Shown: piece after piece, positions 736 to 22,630 of the stretch
Layout of the letters: each line of letters starts with the position of its first letter
Position numbering within the stretch: the stretch's first letter is position 1
NCBI GenBank assembly: GCA_038897115.1
Contig: JAWAXC010000010.1
Coordinates: forward strand, 1-32,563
DNA from: Sulfolobales archaeon
Lineage (GTDB): Archaea > Thermoproteota > Thermoprotei_A > Sulfolobales > AG1
DNA length: 32,563 nucleotides
Reading direction: 5' to 3'
Notes under the pieces: model-generated
Database searches by the model: none
What the model was told of the DNA's origin: nothing
What the model saw: the letters and a program-made list of their open reading frames with translations, nothing else
Position numbers and translations under genes: made by a program

Positions 736-1170
736 ATGAGGTGGCTAGTCCCACCCCTTATATCCTCTATAGTAGCTATAATAGTGCTATTCATATCATG
801 GGAGTTCATGGGTATAGCTGTGCTAGGGGATATTCTAAAAGACCAGAGATCCCTTGTAGCCCTCTTCGCCTCTATATTCATCCCAATAGCCTCGTATAGC
901 TATCTAACCCATCACCAGCTTGAGGAGAGATATAGAAAAGCATCGGAGGAGATTAGAAGGTTAAGAAATCTTGTTGATGCTTATCAGGTTGTTCTTAATA
1001 GTATAAATAAAGATCTTGGTGAGCTTAAAAGAGAACTCGAGAGCCGCCATATGCCAGCTCTAAGCAGAAGTATTGCAAACCTCGAGAGAAGGGTTGCAGC
1101 ATCTGAGAAGCTTATATCAACATTGATAGAGCTTATATCATCCCAGGGCGAGAAAACACAGAAAGGCTAG
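736..1170 (+). CDS. Small membrane-anchored coiled-coil protein, function unknown
   Basis: This 144-residue protein has two N-terminal hydrophobic segments (about residues 5-25 and 40-57). A long charged helix follows, roughly residues 62-140, rich in Glu, Arg, Lys and Leu with heptad-like spacing (EEIRRLRNLVDAYQVV and onward). The pattern suggests a membrane anchor with a cytoplasmic coiled coil. It starts with ATG 17 bases after the preceding membrane-protein gene and is probably co-transcribed with it. A T-rich stretch around 1193-1204 could end the transcript. I do not recognise the family. The codon pattern and clean architecture support a real gene. Confidence 0.7.
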   Translation: MRWLVPPLISSIVAIIVLFISWEFMGIAVLGDILKDQRSLVALFASIFIPIASYSYLTHHQLEERYRKASEEIRRLRNLVDAYQVVLNSINKDLGELKRELESRHMPALSRSIANLERRVAASEKLISTLIELISSQGEKTQKG

Positions 1171-1465
1171 TGATAGCTTTATAGAGGCTTTAACATTTCT
1201 TTTCAATTAACATGGCTATAAACGAGATCCAAATAGATCCCTGTAAAACTAGGAATCACTAATCCATATCTAAGCTTCTCTCAAATGTGATTAGATCAGT
1301 AGCTAGATAAATACTCTATTAATAATCACTATGATTATAGCTGCTAACCTCTAATCTAGAGGTGTTGAGAGCCCTAGGAGGCTTCCTGCTATATTGAATA
1401 GAGATACGATGAATAGCTATAAATGATATTAAGGCTCATCCATAAAGGTATATTTGGTGATTTAG

Positions 1466-2638: not shown

Positions 2639-2681
2639 ATATCTCATCATGTGGGGATCAGCTATAGGATTCCTCTAACTA

Positions 2682-2687
2682 TATATA
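2682..2687 (+). promoter_or_regulatory. TATA-like box for alaS
   Basis: CTATATATACCC at about 2680-2690 places an archaeal TATA box with an expected transcription start near 2711, about nine bases before the alaS ATG at 2720. This predicts a very short leader. No strong competing box lies closer. Confidence 0.4.
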
Positions 2688-2719
2688 CCCGCTGTATTGT
2701 TAATATCTAGGCTAGGGAA

Positions 2720-5458
2720 ATGGTGAAGCTGGGGGATCCCTCTGAGTATAGGCTTAGATATTTTCTAGATAATGGCTTTAGAAGAGCTATATGTAGATCA
2801 TGTGGGACGCCATTTTGGAGCAGGGGTTCCCACGAGATATGTAATGACATACCCTGCTCTGAGTATAGGTTCTTCGATATACCTATTAAGATGAGGAACC
2901 TCAGCTATGAGGATGTTCTAAGGACTTTTCTAAGCTTCTTCGAGAAGGAGGGGCATGCTGTTATAGAGCCTGCGCCTGTTGTTGCTAGGTGGAGAGAGGA
3001 TCTATATCTAACCATAGCATCTATTGTGGTCTTCCAACCCCACGTGACATCCGGTAGAGTCCCGCCCCCAGCTAATCCACTTGTAATCGCCCAGCCATGT
3101 ATAAGGTTAGAGGATATAGATAACGTTGGTAAGACCTTTGGAAGGCATATGACTAACTTCACGATGGGGGGTCACCATGCCTTCAACTATAGAGATAAAT
3201 ATCTATATTGGAAGGATGAGACTGTCGAGTATGCTAGGAGGTTCTTCGTAGATCTAATGGGGGTGCCGGATGAAGAGCTCACATTTAAGGAGAGCTGGTG
3301 GGAGGGTGGCGGAAATGCTGGGCCCAGTGTCGAGGTTACTATAGGGGGCTTGGAAGTGGCTACCCTGGTTTTCATGCAGTACGAGGTCAGAGACGACGGC
3401 TCCCTTGTGGAGCTTCCTCTAAAGATAGTGGACACGGGATATGGTATTGAGAGGATCGCCTGGCTATCCCAGAAGGCACCCACAGCTTTTCACGCTGTCT
3501 ATGGCTCAGATCTTGTTTCAAGGTTCCACAACCTTCTAGGGGTTCCCGAGCCCCCAAGGGATCTTCTGGAGCTCGCATCTAGAAAGGCTGGGAAGATAGA
3601 TCCAGAGGATCCCAGTTCAATGAATAGGTTCTTCGAGGAGGTTGCAAGGGAATCCGGGTATAGGGTATCTGATGTCTCTACCATGCTTTGGGGGGCTATT
3701 AATGTCTACTCTATAATAGATCATACAAAGACCATAGCCCTCATGCTCGGCGATGGGATTGTTCCCTCTAACAGTGGTGAGGGATATCTAGCAAGGCTTG
3801 TGATTAGAAGAACACTGAGGAATCTGAGGAGGCTTGGGAGCGATGTTACTCTAGAGAAGCTCGTAGATCTTCAGGTTGGGAGGTGGGGAGCCATATATCC
3901 TAGGCTATCTAGATCCAGATCATATATATTAGAGGCCTCTAGGCTTGAGGAGGAGAGGTATAGAGAGACAATTAAAAGGGCTCCATCAATTGTTAGCAGG
4001 TATTTAAAAGGGGGTATAACGCTAGAGGATCTTGTTGAGATCTATGATAGCCATGGCATCCCGCCTGAGATTGTTGAGGATGAGCTGAGGAGAAGAAATA
4101 TAGAGGTTAGCATCCCCCATAACTTCTACTCAGTAGTAGCATCGAGGCATTCGAGAGCACCGATTAAGGTTGCTGAGAAGATAGATAGGGAGATCGTTGA
4201 GTGGGCTTCCCAGTTTAAGCCCACGAAGAGGCTATTCCATGAAGATCCCTACCTCAGGAGCTTTAGATCTAGGGTTATAGGGGTTAGAGGAGATCTCTTG
4301 GTATTGGAATCAACATGCTTCTACCCAACAGGTGGTGGGCAGAGAAACGATACAGGTAGAATATCTATAGATGGTTTCGAGGCTAGGGTTATAGATGTGT
4401 TTAAAGTAGGGGATGTGATTATTCATAGACTTGATAAGCCCGTTCCAAGCGATCTCGCGGGCTCCGAGGCATATGGATATATAGACTGGGAGAGGAGGTA
4501 TAGGATAATGAGGCATCATACAGCAACACATGTTCTCCTAGGAGCCCTCAGAAGAATCTATGGAGAGCATATCTGGCAAGCTGGAGCCGAGAAGAGTGAG
4601 GAGAAGGGTAGGCTTGATGTAACACACCACACGGCAATATCTCGGGCAGATATTGCTAAGATCGAGGAGCTTGTGAACAGGGTTATAGATGAGAGGAGGC
4701 CTGTGAGGGTTAGATATATGGAGAGATATGATGCCGAGAAGAGCTATGGATACTCGATATACCAGGGAGGTGTTCCACAGGAGAGGGTTTTAAGGATCGT
4801 AGAGGTCGAGGATTGGGATGCTGAGGCATGCTTTGGAACCCATCTACTGAATACGGGTGAGATAGGTGGCTTCAAGATCATCAATGTTGATAGGATAGCA
4901 GATGGTGTAGTGAGATTCGAATATGTAGCTGGCACAAGAGCCTCGGAGCATGCCTCACTCTATGAAGGGATGTTAGAGGAGATCGCTGATATCGTTGGTG
5001 GGAGAGTCGATAGGGATCTAGTTAAAAGGGTTAGATCTCTAGCCTCTAGCCTCGAGAGGGCTGAAAATATTCTTTCAAAGTATAGGGCTAGCTGGGTCTC
5101 AAGCAAAGTCTCCGAGGCTCTTGAGAAGGCTGAGGATATAGATGGGGTGAGGCTATATATCATAGTGGATCCCCCTGAGATTGAAGGTGCTAGGGACGTC
5201 CTTAAGATCCTCGGTGAGAGGGGGGGATTTGTAGCAGCTCTAACAGCTAGATCTCAGGGCGAGAATCTACTAGAGATCTCCGTCTCGAGAAACCTCTCAC
5301 AGAGGATCCCTGCAAATATGCTCATCAAAAACATAGCCCAGGAGCTAGGGGGGAGGGGAGGGGGTAGCGAGACACATGCATCTGCTAAGGTGTTAGGAGA
5401 TATAGATTCTATTGTAAGGGTTCTAAGGGATGTTATTAGGAGGATGTATAGGGGATAG
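2720..5458 (+). CDS. alaS: Alanyl-tRNA synthetase, archaeal type
   Basis: It charges tRNA-Ala with alanine in the cytoplasm. The 912-residue length is normal for archaeal AlaRS. An archaeal N-terminal cysteine set is present (Cys25, Cys28, Cys41, Cys46), followed by the class II catalytic core (about 55-270) and the tRNA-recognition region. The editing domain has the HxxxH pair His600/His604 (in RHHTATH) and the CFGTH motif with Cys704 and His708. These four residues bind zinc and clear Ser and Gly mischarging. A coiled-coil and C-Ala region follow, with GGRGGGSETHASAK near the end. The ATG at 2720 is followed by an in-frame GTG at 2723; the ATG is chosen. The last 29 bases overlap the next gene, implying coupled expression. 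Confidence 0.97.
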   Translation: MVKLGDPSEYRLRYFLDNGFRRAICRSCGTPFWSRGSHEICNDIPCSEYRFFDIPIKMRNLSYEDVLRTFLSFFEKEGHAVIEPAPVVARWREDLYLTIASIVVFQPHVTSGRVPPPANPLVIAQPCIRLEDIDNVGKTFGRHMTNFTMGGHHAFNYRDKYLYWKDETVEYARRFFVDLMGVPDEELTFKESWWEGGGNAGPSVEVTIGGLEVATLVFMQYEVRDDGSLVELPLKIVDTGYGIERIAWLSQKAPTAFHAVYGSDLVSRFHNLLGVPEPPRDLLELASRKAGKIDPEDPSSMNRFFEEVARESGYRVSDVSTMLWGAINVYSIIDHTKTIALMLGDGIVPSNSGEGYLARLVIRRTLRNLRRLGSDVTLEKLVDLQVGRWGAIYPRLSRSRSYILEASRLEEERYRETIKRAPSIVSRYLKGGITLEDLVEIYDSHGIPPEIVEDELRRRNIEVSIPHNFYSVVASRHSRAPIKVAEKIDREIVEWASQFKPTKRLFHEDPYLRSFRSRVIGVRGDLLVLESTCFYPTGGGQRNDTGRISIDGFEARVIDVFKVGDVIIHRLDKPVPSDLAGSEAYGYIDWERRYRIMRHHTATHVLLGALRRIYGEHIWQAGAEKSEEKGRLDVTHHTAISRADIAKIEELVNRVIDERRPVRVRYMERYDAEKSYGYSIYQGGVPQERVLRIVEVEDWDAEACFGTHLLNTGEIGGFKIINVDRIADGVVRFEYVAGTRASEHASLYEGMLEEIADIVGGRVDRDLVKRVRSLASSLERAENILSKYRASWVSSKVSEALEKAEDIDGVRLYIIVDPPEIEGARDVLKILGERGGFVAALTARSQGENLLEISVSRNLSQRIPANMLIKNIAQELGGRGGGSETHASAKVLGDIDSIVRVLRDVIRRMYRG

Positions 5459-9078: not shown

Positions 9079-9558
9079 AGGTTCTGGTTTCATCGGGCTT
9101 CAAACCCTCTGCCTTGTCACCTCCTACCTTTGGCTGCTGTTTTTGTTTTATGTTGGTTTATGTTTGTTGATAGTATTCTTGGGTGGTGCTTATGATCTTT
9201 TCTGCTATAAATAGGTATTGAGGCTGACACTATAAACTCGATGAGCAATGTGAGAGGGAGGAAGCTTCCCAAGGAAGCTCTCCATGTCCCCGAGGGGAGG
9301 CTAGCTCTCATAGGCGGCATGGGGAGCCAGATAGAGGGTATGGGGGCAAGCGGGGATACCAAACAACATGAACCGCAATGAAGACCTGACCCCTCATCCT
9401 CCGTGCCTTCCTTTGAGAGCCTGTCTCCCTGCAACTGCTTATGGGGGGTTCATAGTGGGCTCTTCAAAACTAATAGATATTAAAGGGAGGCTTCAAAGCT
9501 TCACTATTTTCAAGAATGCCATTAACAGATATAAAATATAAAAACAGCAACCAGCGGG
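9079..9558. other. Intergenic region with one possible small ORF
   Basis: This 480-base gap lies between the SDR gene and the 3' end of the beta-helix gene, which point towards each other. It holds a TATA-like TATAAATA at 9206-9213 and a 46-codon ORF (listed separately). The segment 9420-9450 (CTCCCTGC, then GGGGTTC) is similar to the left boundary of the 8.0-8.3 kb element. The stretch may therefore be another worn IS200/IS605-type fragment. I see no RNA gene of known class. Confidence 0.4.
9241..9381 (+). CDS. Possible small ORF, 46 residues (hypothetical or transposon remnant)
   Basis: ATG at 9241 opens a 46-codon frame whose product has RKLPKEALHVPEGRLALIGG near its start and ends GDTKQHEPQ. 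A TATAAATA box at 9206-9213 would start transcription around 9236, five bases before the ATG, which is the spacing of a real crenarchaeal promoter. The Pro/Gly/Arg-rich make-up and the worn transposon-like surroundings also fit a leftover TnpB C-terminal tail. I do not recognise a family. An overlapping minus-strand frame also exists, so coding is unproven. Confidence 0.3.
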   Translation: MSNVRGRKLPKEALHVPEGRLALIGGMGSQIEGMGASGDTKQHEPQ

Positions 9559-16648: not shown

Positions 16649-17483
16649 ATATAGATTATAACTTGAAACTTAAAAGCGAGTCTCCACCATAATGCTAGAA
16701 CCATATTCATTCACACAAACCATACCTTTGAATATCGAGCTGTTAGGGCTTCCCACGATCTCCTCAGGAATCCTGAGACCACTGCTAAACTTATAACTTC
16801 TAGATCTTACATGTTTTGTTATGTCTTCGCTATATGTTGTCAAAGCAGAGCATACAAATCCGAGGGGGACGATATATCTTAAAGATTAAATGATATAGTG
16901 AGAAAGCATGGATAGCAGGTATATAGCATCAGCCTACCTTATACCCTATATAATAATAGAAAGATTCGTTTAGCACAGAAGGCTATAGCCACGTGTTTCA
17001 GCATATATATCGAGAAAAGCTCTCATACTAAAGCATTAACATTTATATCAATTTCGATCGATATTATGGATGAATAGCTATGATTATCTAAAGATGTCTC
17101 ACAGAAGATAGGAATAGCTCTAAGGATCATAGATACCTAATAATAAATATATAGCACCATCTATTCCTAAAATACTTTACGACTGGAAGCCCTATGTTCC
17201 CCAGCCCCTCTGTAACGTAGCCTCTAAGCTTTAGAGCAGGATTAACTATGCTGAGAAGATGTTGTTCAAAGAAGAGAGGGTAGATCTAAAAACGAATATA
17301 TAGAGGTTTCTATGAGAAATATAAAAGATCGATTGATCTGCAACAGCATAGGAGGTTCTTAACAAAAGCGGTGGGCTGTTTTCTTTTTAATTGTTTTTAG
17401 AATTCTTTATATTCATTTTATAGCTTTTAGGGCTATTAGGTAGGCTGATGCATATAAGCCCGGAGGCTATAAGTCTATCGGTG

Positions 17484-17597
17484 GGCTCGGGGTGCGTGAG
17501 GGCGGCTGAACCGCCGTAGCCCGTCCCGAGCCGTGCCGTAATGAACCCGAGGGCGGCCATAAATGGATATAAAATAAAATAAAAACCGCTCTCGGGT
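17484..17597 (+). ncRNA. GC-rich structured segment, candidate non-coding RNA (possibly omega-RNA relic)
   Basis: An 8-bp stem GGCTCGGG/CCCGAGCC (17484-17491 with 17525-17532) encloses GGCGG-CTGAA-CCGCC (17501-17505 with 17511-17515), flanked by GGGC/GCCC. A second stem of 12 pairs with one G-U joins 17545-17556 to 17586-17597 across an A-rich loop. The sequence CCCGAG or CTCGGG occurs in four arms, so alternative pairings are possible. The segment sits in AT-rich DNA, where GC-rich stems often mark RNA genes in hyperthermophiles. It shares GAGGGCGG with the structured tail of the tnpB relic at 22.5 kb. The class is unknown; the strand is taken from the nearby relic. Confidence 0.4.
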
Positions 17598-17644
17598 GAA
17601 CGGTTTAAGAAGCGTTTTTCTCACTGTTTAAAGCAGGGAATGGG

Positions 17645-17750
17645 GAAGGTTGCATCGATCCATAACGAGGATTTAGCTCCCTGGGTATAGGTGCAAGGTT
17701 GAACCAGGCGAGAGCCTGGGATGTAGCCCAAACCTCCCGCTCTGGAGGGC
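17645..17750 (+). pseudogene. Relic of a tnpB 3' end with right-end hairpins
   Basis: The 15 bases GAAGGTTGCATCGAT (17645-17659) are identical to the sequence encoding KVASI in the tnpB relic at 22367-22381. A few decayed codons follow to a TAG. Next comes a CCAGGC-GAGA-GCCTGG hairpin (17704-17719) with a GNRA loop, then GCCCAAACC and a CCTCC/GGAGG hairpin (17733-17748). The other relic shows the same order: hairpin, ACCCAAACC, terminal hairpin. This fits the omega-RNA and right end of an IS200/IS605 element whose coding part has been deleted. Confidence 0.5.
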
Positions 17751-17917
17751 AAAAGGCTTTAATTGTAATAAGTACTGTGGTGATCGGAAACATAGATCAA
17801 ATAGCGTGGATAAGACTAGATACTCAATAATGATAAAATAGAAAACAGATCTGCTATAGAGTTGGATATAAGATAGATCGAATGATCTGTTATAGAATTA
17901 AAGGTTCTCGAAATTGG

Positions 17918-18337
17918 TTAGGGATCTAGTAGTCTGTTTTCTTCTAGTCTTTTATGTAGCTCTTTTATGATTTGAAGAGCTCTAACATAACCCTGGGTCT
18001 CTATAGCTCTCTTTACACGTTCTATATCAATTGAGGTGTATTCATGTACTAATATATTTCTGAACCTCACAACTCTTTTTATGAACTCTGCATCCTCAGA
18101 TCTGATCATATCTCTTCTTTTCAGCTCCTCTATGCATCTAATAGGTGTTTCAGAGGATATGCCGGTGAGTGCGCATGTGTGTAGGAGATAATCTATAACT
18201 GCTTGGGCATGTATCTGGAGCGCATGTAGTACCCCATAGAATTCTATAACATCGTTCCATTTGACCCCCTTTTCTCTAATCCTCTCTAGAAGATCTGTGT
18301 GTGATGCTATTAATTCTAAAAGTCTTTTATGCAGCAT
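17918..18337 (-). CDS. HepT-like HEPN toxin (RNase or MntA target)
   Basis: The 139-residue helical HEPN-domain protein carries the HepT motif R-x4-H-x-Y as Arg93, His98 and Tyr100 (RNILVHEY). In known HepT/MntA pairs the HEPN protein is the ribonuclease toxin, and the nucleotidyltransferase silences it by adding AMP to the Tyr of this motif. The gene overlaps the 3' end of the mntA-like gene by 11 bases, so the two are one operon. The ATG at 18337 is the natural start. All motif residues are intact, so the toxin is probably functional. Confidence 0.85.
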   Translation of the reverse strand: MLHKRLLELIASHTDLLERIREKGVKWNDVIEFYGVLHALQIHAQAVIDYLLHTCALTGISSETPIRCIEELKRRDMIRSEDAEFIKRVVRFRNILVHEYTSIDIERVKRAIETQGYVRALQIIKELHKRLEENRLLDP

Positions 18338-18731
18338 CCCTTATAACCCGCTTAACCAGAGTCTCTGTATACCCTAGCTTTTCACGTGATAACATGAAGT
18401 CATAGCATATGTTAATAGCTCTAACAAGCTTATCCCTACCAGCAGGGCTTTGATAGACTATAACACCATGGCGAAGGGCTTCCCAGAGTAGGAAGCAGTT
18501 GACATCTCCTGGATCCCGAACTATATAGATATCAGCCTCTAACTCGAGCCTATTCTCAACAAACTCCATAATCCTTAAAGCAACATTATCCTCGTCCTCG
18601 ACATCGCTTATTATAGCCAAAAGATCTAGATCCCTAGGCATATTACTCCTTAAAACAGATCCATAGATGATCAGTAATTGAACCCCGAGAGCCTCCCAAC
18701 ATATATTTTTAAAGACTTCCATAATATTCAA
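18327..18731 (-). CDS. MntA-like minimal nucleotidyltransferase antitoxin
   Basis: The 134-residue minimal nucleotidyltransferase has the signature Gly24-Ser25 followed by Asp34 and Asp36 (YGSVLRSNMPRDLDLLAI), which bind metal and nucleotide. The spacing is GS-x8-DxD, two residues shorter than the GS-x10-DxD usual for MntA, though other family features remain. It is the upstream gene of the hepT pair and probably AMPylates the HEPN protein. The start is either TTG at 18731 or ATG at 18722, with no strong evidence to choose. Confidence 0.82.
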   Translation of the reverse strand: MNIMEVFKNICWEALGVQLLIIYGSVLRSNMPRDLDLLAIISDVEDEDNVALRIMEFVENRLELEADIYIVRDPGDVNCFLLWEALRHGVIVYQSPAGRDKLVRAINICYDFMLSREKLGYTETLVKRVIRDAA

Positions 18732-21328: not shown

Positions 21329-21568
21329 ATGGTGATGATGTTGGGTAAATATGTAACTATATCTGTTTTGAGGGAGGTTAAGGAGTTGTTGTCTAGAGAG
21401 AAGGGTGATAGAGATTGGAGCAGCTTTCTTCTTGAGCTGTATAGAGAAGCTCGACGTGGTAGGGCTAGGGAGGCGTTCAGCGAGCTTAGAAATATTCTGA
21501 GCCCAGAGGATCTAGAGAATATTGTTAGAGCCAGTAAGGAGTTTAGGGAGGGTTTTAGACTAGGATGA
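21329..21568 (+). CDS. vapB: VapB-type antitoxin
   Basis: The 79-residue protein begins with a short strand, GKYVTISV, followed by two charged helices, as in ribbon-helix-helix or DUF217-like antitoxins that bind their own promoter. It overlaps the PIN toxin by four bases (ATGA), the usual antitoxin-first order. The start may be ATG 21329 or the ATG at 21338 (MLGKYVTI). The C-terminal helix (about 50-79) is expected to wrap the toxin. It is part of a three-gene unit with vapC and a small membrane ORF. Confidence 0.85.
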   Translation: MVMMLGKYVTISVLREVKELLSREKGDRDWSSFLLELYREARRGRAREAFSELRNILSPEDLENIVRASKEFREGFRLG

Positions 21569-21918
21569 GCTTAATCGATACCAGTGTTTTAATTGATAAC
21601 ATTAGAAGGGGTGTTTATGAGGAAGGAGCTATATCGATAATCACGTTAATAGAGGTGCTGAGGGGTTTAGCATCGGAGAAAAGGAGAAGGGTTAAAGAAC
21701 TGTTGGAGAGAAGCTATGATGTTATCTACCTAGATAACAAGGTCATACTAAAATACTGCGAACTATACGACGAACTTAAGCAAAAAGGACTTCTAATGTC
21801 AGATGCGGATCTATTAATAGCTGCTACAGCCCTAACAAACAACATGGTTCTCGTAACAAAGGATAGAGACTTCGAGAGACTTAAAAACGTTGGACTAAGA
21901 TTAGATCTGAGAACATGA
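21565..21918 (+). CDS. vapC: VapC-type PIN-domain toxin (ribonuclease)
   Basis: The 117-residue PIN domain has the acidic Mg-binding residues Asp5 (LIDTSV), Glu30 (TLIEVLRG), Asp80 and Asp82 (SDADLLIAA) and Asp100 and Asp102 (TKDRDFERL). These predict a site-specific RNase that cuts tRNA or rRNA when free of VapB. The ATG overlaps the vapB stop by four bases. Its own stop overlaps the start of a further small ORF, also as ATGA. All catalytic residues are kept, so the toxin looks active. Confidence 0.9.
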   Translation: MSLIDTSVLIDNIRRGVYEEGAISIITLIEVLRGLASEKRRRVKELLERSYDVIYLDNKVILKYCELYDELKQKGLLMSDADLLIAATALTNNMVLVTKDRDFERLKNVGLRLDLRT

Positions 21919-22074: not shown

Positions 22075-22478
22075 ATAAACAAGCTCCCGGCAGGCCTGAG
22101 GAGAATATTACCAAACACGATCCATGTTTTTGAGGATCTAGATAAGGAGGATCTTGTTAGCAGGAAGAAGGCCAAGAAGTCTAGGAGGAAGAGGAATCAT
22201 AGAACTCCTTGGAGGATCATACATAAGAGGATATCAGAGGTAGCATTACAGCTTTCGTGCCGCCAGAGAATACCTCTCGTGAGTGCTCCAGATGCGGGTA
22301 TGTCGTTGAGACCCAAAAGGGGCATATATTTAAATGTCCTAAGTGCAGCCTGAAAATGGATAGATAGAAGGTTGCATCGATAAACATTAGGAGGAGATAC
22401 CTAAAAGGTAGGAGAAGAGGTAAGGGGAAAACCAGGATGTGGGGTTTCCCTACAGCGATGAACCAGAGGCTTCTATGA
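22075..22478 (+). pseudogene. tnpB: Decayed TnpB (IS200/IS605 OrfB) C-terminal half
   Basis: The first part, from 22075 to about 22250, reads INKLPAGLRRILPNTI, then VFEDLDKEDLVSRKK and TPWRIIHKRISEVA, typical of the TnpB RuvC-like core. The frame then shifts. From about 22245 it continues as PENTSRECSRCGYV and KCPKCSLKMDR, the four-Cys zinc finger, into an in-frame TAG at 22365. After it come KVASINI and RMWGFP up to TGA at 22476. The N-terminal half is missing. With a frameshift, an internal stop and a lost 5' end, no active nuclease can be made. Confidence 0.88.
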
Positions 22479-22630
22479 GAGTGGAGCTGTGGGTAGGGGT
22501 CACCCCGAGCGGGCGGAGCCCAGTGATATGGATCCCGATGAAAGGGGATCCTGAGGGCGGTGAAACCAAGGGAAGAGGGCTTGATAAACATCAAGCCCAG
22601 TGAAACCCAAACCCCATCCTACTGGATATC
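22479..22630 (+). ncRNA. Omega-RNA / right-end region of the tnpB relic
   Basis: Right after the tnpB stop the DNA turns GC-rich and structured. A 7-bp stem GGATCCC/GGGATCC pairs 22530-22536 with 22545-22551. A 9-bp stem GGGCTTGAT-AAAC-ATCAAGCCC spans 22577-22598. ACCCAAACCCC and a broken terminal hairpin (CCATCC, then GGA) follow. TnpB guide RNAs are known to arise from exactly this 3' region. The terminal hairpin lacks its right arm, so the end has been lost and the RNA is probably non-functional. Confidence 0.5.

Follow-up and report, generated by a model that had tools for sequence, protein, structure and literature searches.

The window analysed here is the whole 32,563-nt stretch of a Sulfolobales archaeon (contig JAWAXC010000010.1). 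At 17,484-17,597 it contains a GC-rich segment with two strong stems, which had been noted from the sequence alone as a possible new RNA. We find that this segment is a relic of mobile DNA that is linked to a TnpB-like nuclease gene, of a family widespread among archaea, and carries a structured RNA. The features at the locus, including a mini-element that resembles a miniature inverted-repeat transposable element (MITE), are the following.

17373-17375, plus strand: GGG, the target G-run directly left of the element; two of its G form the presumed GG core
17376-17603, plus strand: MITE-like mini-element of 228 bp with left end CTGTTTTC... and right end ...GAACGG, its internal tnpB deleted
17413-17451, minus strand: remnant of the deleted TnpB-like gene, comprising its final 12 codons with the stop (ASAYLIALKAIK*) and directed away from the RNA
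17452-17458, plus strand: TATA-like box ATATAAG, 28 nt before the start of the RNA model; such boxes are enriched in 58 tnpB loci
17480-17604, plus strand: structured RNA, covariance model R1, 119.7 bits
17484-17532, plus strand: hairpin 1 (11-bp outer helix, internal loop GUA/GA, 5-bp inner helix, CUGAA loop)
17535-17604, plus strand: hairpin 2 (GCCGU/ACGGU helix, kink-turn (K-turn) with AAU bulge and GA / GA, 12-bp helix, variable AU-rich loop)
17605-17624, plus strand: host flank directly after the RNA scaffold, the putative guide position

Fold and covariation of the RNA

On the plus strand the region 17470-17610 folds at -61.9 kcal/mol (z -4.07), a value that none of 200 dinucleotide shuffles reaches; the minus strand folds at -54.9 kcal/mol (z -5.01). 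Both stems sit where the original prediction had placed them, and the first, given there as 8 bp, extends to 11 bp (17484-17494 with 17522-17532) and encloses a stem of 5 bp (17501-17505 with 17511-17515). Stem 2 has 12 bp (17545-17556 with 17586-17597), and the CCCGAG/CTCGGG arms are present four times, as described. An additional 5-bp helix (17535-17539 with 17600-17604) closes stem 2 via the K-turn; it forms when the RNA is folded alone and is paired in 93% of cells across homologues. We take the GUA/GA internal loop of hairpin 1 to be loop-E-like, and the bulge with GA / GA in hairpin 2 to be a K-turn. The GC content of the segment is 59%, against 29-43% across the 300 bases to its left. 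The claim of AT-rich surroundings thus holds on one side only, since the right neighbour (17640-17759) is also GC-rich at 55%.

For the analysis of covariation we aligned 23 RNA copies from several genomes (alignment A1), leaving out three degraded or divergent copies (L035 and L030, with hairpin 1 degraded or shortened, and L016). In A1 95% of the 639 cells pair, and pairing falls to about 50% when the partner is slid by one column. The compensatory changes expected of a functional RNA are found: both sides have changed in 16 of the 28 pairs, with 69 such cells against a mean of 22.5 after shuffling. Because G-U cells (105) outnumber A-C cells (17), the plus strand is taken as the folding strand. 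The GA on one strand of the K-turn is present in 22 of the 23 copies. Similar tendencies are seen when all 65 R1 matches are aligned (A3; 93.6% of cells paired and 446 both-side cells against 123.7 in shuffles), an alignment that was fitted to the structure, leans towards it and includes a few chance or inverted rows. As judged from these alignments, the segment encodes an RNA under structural selection. As a separate observation, hairpin 1 carries either of two interchangeable inner modules on one outer helix within the copies of a single genome (A1 columns 17-46), namely a GAGA/GA tandem-GA loop or the GUA/GA loop.

The covariance searches gave different outcomes for Rfam and for our own model. 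The segment has no Rfam match at gathering score, and just two weak ones far below threshold at E up to 10; an identity as H/ACA, C/D, SRP or RNase P RNA was rejected on this ground. R1, on the other hand, yields, at E<=0.01, at least 31 matches in the own genome (among the best 150 of 524 candidates scored; 17 under stricter filters) and matches in 68 of the 197 genomes of the order. One hit distant from the gene (L239, 3517-3628, 19.2 bits) was taken as chance. The palindromic nature of the hairpin would explain the hits on the plus strand of L164 and L180 (18.5 and 13.6 bits).

Linkage to a divergent TnpB-like gene

The leader of the window copy, read backwards, gives the C-terminus of a TnpB-like protein, and its final residues (ASAYLIALKAIK*) match those of the proteins at two loci, L013 and L014, where a 365-aa gene starts beside the RNA on the opposite strand. 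The L013 protein has matches (E<=1e-20) in 52 of the order's 197 genomes, and a profile search (E<=1e-30) gave matches in 26 of 349 genomes across the phylum. Neither search found any in the own genome. R1 matches at E<=0.01 were found in 27 of the 30 loci from the L013 search, each of the remaining three abutting a contig edge, and wherever the gene was located (26 of 26) the RNA lies on the opposite strand.

A contig scan with the protein family alignment (A2) gave 73 loci, partly on the same contigs, from Desulfurococcales, Acidilobaceae, Pyrodictiaceae, Ignisphaera, Zestosphaera, Aeropyrum, Staphylothermus, Caldivirga and Vulcanisaeta, together with a single Thermococcus genome and a fragment from a Bathyarchaeota genome. 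Full-length loci are present in Caldivirga sp. MU80 and Vulcanisaeta sp. JCM 14467. Of the 73 loci, 15 were excluded because the gene's 5' end or 150 upstream nucleotides are missing (2 of these still have the RNA, 13 are without R1 match). In all 58 testable loci an R1 match is found on the opposite strand, upstream of the aligned start of the gene and with its near end 27-90 nt away from it (median 57.5). Of these matches 56 reach E<=0.01, the other two having E 0.014 and 0.022; three loci among the 58 (L164, L180, L192) belonged to the training set of R1. The canonical omega-RNA position (tnpB 3' end, same strand) is taken in none of the 58, the RNA being upstream on the opposite strand in each. 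At a further locus, L222, two R1 RNAs lie 38 nt apart (1113-1223, minus strand, and 1262-1393, plus strand) upstream of one tnpB fragment.

A TATA-like box (at least 7 of 8) is present within 70 nt upstream of the RNA in 50 of the 58 loci, whereas 200 base shuffles gave 23 loci on average and 35 at most. The best sites are situated at -34 to -28 in 34 loci and at -16 to -14 in 18.

By sequence the protein is hardly recognised. No PDB chain matches at E<=1, Pfam gives only Cas12f1-like_TNB (2 of 23 family members, best E 0.0053), and the NCBIfam models TIGR01766 (16 of 23, best E 6.4e-6) and guided_TnpB (9 of 23, best E 3.1e-5) stay below cut-off where bits were seen (13.7 for L013/L057 and 13.8 for L014, against 32). 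The AlphaFold model, with a predicted local distance difference test score (pLDDT) of 87.7, resembles Cas12f1 9i8y (Z 20.6, 312 residues, root-mean-square deviation (rmsd) 4.0), ISDra2 TnpB 8exa (Z 16.1, 289 residues, rmsd 3.9) and Fanzor2 (Z 15.2, 305 residues, rmsd 4.2), and the same families are ranked at the top by Foldseek. In its predicted fold, therefore, the protein of about 365 aa is a TnpB/Cas12f, RuvC domain included. D209 and E273 are found in 23 of 23 members and D346 in 22 (N in L081); by their position these are the likely RuvC active-site residues. There is no conserved zinc-finger pair, because only a single alignment column has cysteine in at least 10 members.

The same layout, with a divergent upstream RNA, is seen in a sister group of distant TnpB relatives (20 loci; family f11, probably Sulfolobaceae, and others). 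By eye, tnpB is preceded in these loci by a small open reading frame (ORF), and the opposite strand carries another GC-rich RNA, termed RNA-B; a TATA pattern precedes RNA-B in 16 of the 18 loci inspected. In 6 of the 8 f11 loci the Rfam family Sso133 (RF02814) lies within RNA-B, upstream of and divergent from tnpB; its model has 73 positions and covers just part of the RNA-B of some 170-220 nt. Rfam types Sso133 as a small RNA (sRNA) gene, and its entry line gives no link to TnpB. Sso133 was reportedly found experimentally by Tang et al. in 2005. RNA-B shows modest covariation, weaker than that of the RNA described above (13 of 33 predicted pairs with both-side changes, 10 sequences). The window itself holds a relic of this second type.

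9223-9393, plus strand: RNA-B relic with Rfam Sso133 at 9262-9326, without its TnpB

Both RNA types meet in some loci. R1 matches (E<=0.01) occur in the sister loci L248, L249 and L250, and in L249, L250 and an insert in L224 an RNA-B-like 5' part is joined, by eye, to an R1-type 3' hairpin. L249 also has an R1 hit downstream of the sister-group tnpB on the same strand (3167-3275, minus strand, 36 bits) and a further one at 2654-2757 (plus strand). As the hybrid RNA is present there upstream and divergent as well (12.2 bits), the downstream hit was read as another copy (candidate). RNA-257 of S. solfataricus was rejected as a relative: according to the available text of PMC3674436 it derives from the distal part of the ISC1904 transposase gene and has the canonical layout. 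The S. solfataricus RNomics study is described in that text without the name Sso133.

Element copies, ends and insertion site

The own genome (G000; 2.44 Mb in 188 contigs, 96% complete) was searched with 17440-17780, and the 35 matches comprise the window itself and two unrelated repeats. The first repeat (17440-17606) is found at 16 other places. Its copies share a unit that starts with GGGCTG in most cases, continues with an AT-rich leader of about 100 nt followed by the two hairpins, and has its end at GAACGG or close to it; GGG is present at the left edge in 13 of the 17 copies. The second repeat (17696-17743) had first been assigned to the mini-element and was rejected as a separate repeat with 18 further places; it starts about 90 nt past the mini-element and resembles the tail of ordinary TnpB elements.

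The boundaries of the mini-element were drawn from the copies in another genome, G029, and from a nested insertion in L224, with the own-genome copies as further evidence. G029 (a single contig) contains two elements of about 1316 bp that are 99.3% identical and are filled by a tnpB of about 1.1 kb and the RNA, with no tnpA inside. Nine further copies are short (272-312 bp aligned), having the same two ends but no tnpB interior. The 11 copies have 11 different flanks, a right end GAACGG in 10 (AAACGG in one) and, standing at the left end, GGGG in 10 (GGGT in one). As in a MITE, derivatives with an internal deletion thus share both ends with the full element, and the window copy still keeps the tnpB C-terminus. 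In the 11 G029 copies, the own-genome copies and L224 the RNA scaffold ends at the element boundary with the flank following; beyond the ACGG end no conservation is visible in the own-genome and G029 copies.

In L224 a mini-element is inserted within another tnpB of the same family, and five relatives without this insert have the same codon length at that place. It follows that the insert measures 272 bp, that the G-run is target-derived and that the reading frame is intact again at the empty site. One case of insertion at a GG core with no longer duplication is thereby seen, in which the exact point within the G-run is ambiguous; we take the GG core to be that of IS607 insertion. A BLAST search for further empty sites among the fetched loci gave, in the matches listed (80 of 331), same-place copies or matches within genes, so L224 is the sole clean case.

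The ends were further compared with those of eight loci that contain IS607 TnpA. A right-end hairpin with AACGG is present in L274, L275, L277 and L280 (AATGG in L276), and the left end GGGCTG of the window copy recurs in three of these five (L275-L277). In L257, L259 and L262 NCBIfam identifies the ORF that follows tnpA as a TnpB (TIGR01766 over cut-off in 3 of 3, guided_TnpB in 2 of 3), and R1 weakly hits the ends of L259 and L262 (22.3 and 21.5 bits; 2 of the 9 IS607 loci searched), where the RNA has the canonical position at the tnpB 3' end on the same strand. The A2 profile has no match at E<=1 to the ORFs of the IS607 loci L257-L266. Given the IS607-like ends, the GG insertion, these unmatched TnpBs and the missing TnpA in G029, the element looks like an IS607 frame that has lost tnpA and carries another TnpB in inverted orientation. 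Identity with a known insertion-sequence (IS) end, which had been set against a new RNA, is therefore found in part, as a resemblance to IS607 ends. In L010 a broken serine-recombinase-like frame (MKAAAYIRVS..., by eye) starts in the flank directly after the RNA end.

Elsewhere in the window, 22217-22620 holds a degraded ordinary TnpB-like remnant with a zinc-finger-like CSRCGY...CPKC (plus strand, by eye), behind which lies a GC-rich tail at 22.5 kb. The word GAGGGCGG, which the segment has in common with this tail and which had suggested a relation, is no evidence of a link, because R1 finds only 17480-17604 within the window (E up to 10). Two overlapping minus-strand ORFs at 17918-18731 resemble a HEPN/nucleotidyltransferase pair, and a small ORF pair at 21330-21918 resembles an antitoxin with a PIN-domain VapC toxin (both by eye).

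Interpretation and comparison with known systems

Summarizing, the segment is probably the RNA gene of a non-autonomous mini-element derived from IS607, encoding an omega-RNA-like guide scaffold that has its own promoter and is divergent from tnpB. In RNA orientation the intact element would comprise the left end, a minus-strand TnpB-like gene, the divergent promoter region, the plus-strand RNA and the right end. The scaffold would consist of the two hairpins with the K-turn and stop at the right end ...ACGG; for this reason a transcript would run into host DNA and have the flank as its 3' guide. By analogy with ISDra2, from which the length is borrowed, the guide might take some 16-20 nt of flank. 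TnpB would bind the RNA and cut the empty target, i.e. a G-run followed by the former flank, which gives the GGG left of the window copy a TAM-like position (TAM, transposon-adjacent motif). Such cutting would favour retention and copying of the element, as in canonical TnpB, and mobilisation would be by IS607 TnpA. The difference would lie only in the reversed gene layout, in which the RNA would be transcribed from a separate promoter and not derive from tnpB mRNA. The proposal of an omega-RNA relic can thus be retained insofar as the segment is a relic of a TnpB-linked mobile element whose RNA most likely served as guide scaffold; what differs is the layout, with the RNA upstream of tnpB, on the opposite strand and behind its own TATA-like box. 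The window copy is an orphan today and at most usable in trans, since its tnpB is lost and no TnpB of the family was found in the genome.

Several observations weigh against this reading. The other GA of the K-turn is present in 18 of the 23 copies, the remaining 5 having AA (4) or GG (1). In the longer fold of 17470-17610 the 5' strand of the helix that closes hairpin 2 pairs upstream, which offers an alternative to this helix. A protein search (5 candidates scored) and a profile search found no member of this TnpB family in the own genome. IS607 TnpA is present in 5 of the 6 genomes tested, the own genome included; the exception is G029, whose single-contig chromosome gave no match despite eleven near-identical copies, so that IS607 TnpA was rejected as the present-day mover there. 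The left G-run is demonstrably target-derived in L224 only. In 3 of the 8 IS607 loci (L278, L279, L281) no such right end was found, and in 2 of the 5 that have it (L274, L280) GGGCTG is not at the BLAST limit. Finally, covariation and ends could also serve a role at the DNA level.

An extension that we regard as possible, though rather doubtful, is that the RNA acts as a stand-alone guide gene. As it would have its own promoter and need no tnpB mRNA, tnpB-less mini-elements could spread as dispersed single-guide units with different flanks, usable in trans by one TnpB. If true, this would be a guide array built by a transposon. Since Cas12f-type CRISPR likewise has separate genes for guide and nuclease, such an array could plausibly stand between it and omega-RNA systems.

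Of the rival explanations, the one that survives best, itself unlikely, is that the hairpins act only as DNA, being end structures recognised by a transposase without any functional RNA. It would agree with the position of the structured segment at the element end and its retention in tnpB-less copies, and the ends of IS200/IS605 are DNA hairpins. Against this explanation stand the excess of G-U over A-C cells (105 against 17), the TATA-like box with its best site at -34 to -28 in 34 of 58 loci, the K-turn, the linkage to the nuclease gene in 58 of 58 loci, and the fact that the sister RNA contains an Rfam-listed sRNA gene, Sso133.

It appears quite improbable that the RNA has no guide function and controls tnpB or a host gene as a regulatory or antisense RNA. 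The divergent position 27-90 nt from tnpB would suit such a role, and transposon-derived RNAs of S. solfataricus serve as antisense regulators (PMC3674436); nonetheless, the RNA lies outside the tnpB frame in 58 loci, and in the 11 G029 copies the scaffold end meets the element boundary, as in guide RNAs. A host K-turn RNA (H/ACA or C/D guide, or RNase P-like) unrelated to transposition is scarcely credible: the K-turn and GUGAUGA words, which we take to be C-box-like, would point to it, against which stand the missing Rfam match, the 31 dispersed matches in one genome and the linkage to a transposon nuclease. The suggestion of an independent H/ACA-like small RNA is likewise not supported, as the RNA travels with tnpB.

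Our literature search gave no description of a divergent upstream guide RNA for TnpB, a novelty that is provisional as the literature on TnpB classification was incompletely covered. The results define an RNA family absent from Rfam, assign a likely guide RNA to a TnpB family that is barely recognised and offer an explanation for the orphan Sulfolobus sRNA Sso133. They also suggest that the genes for guide RNA and nuclease can uncouple inside a transposon, a step required for the transition from TnpB to Cas12.

The omega-RNA of IscB is likewise encoded upstream of its nuclease gene, which belongs to another nuclease family and is co-oriented with the RNA. In ISDra2, as described in PMC8612924, the right-end element RNA (reRNA) consists of the tnpB 3' end, the right end and about 16 nt of flank, and the target is the TAM with the flank of the empty site. 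The present system resembles this type in having a structured RNA at the element end whose 3' end abuts the flank, a possible TAM motif at the other end and a RuvC nuclease of TnpB fold; it differs in that the RNA is upstream of tnpB, divergent and equipped with its own TATA-like box. Bacterial IS607 TnpBs use AGGAG or GAGGG TAMs adjoining the left end and a reRNA derived from RAGATH-18 (PMC11061315). The IS607 frame and a G-rich TAM at the left end (here the G-run as putative TAM) are shared, but there TnpB lies upstream of its reRNA whereas here the gene is inverted, and the TnpB belongs to another family (the A2 profile hits no ORF of L257-L266). The guides of Cas12f derive from CRISPR (PMC8612924), in which it would differ from the present system; in structure, Cas12f1 is alike over the whole chain (Z 20.6).
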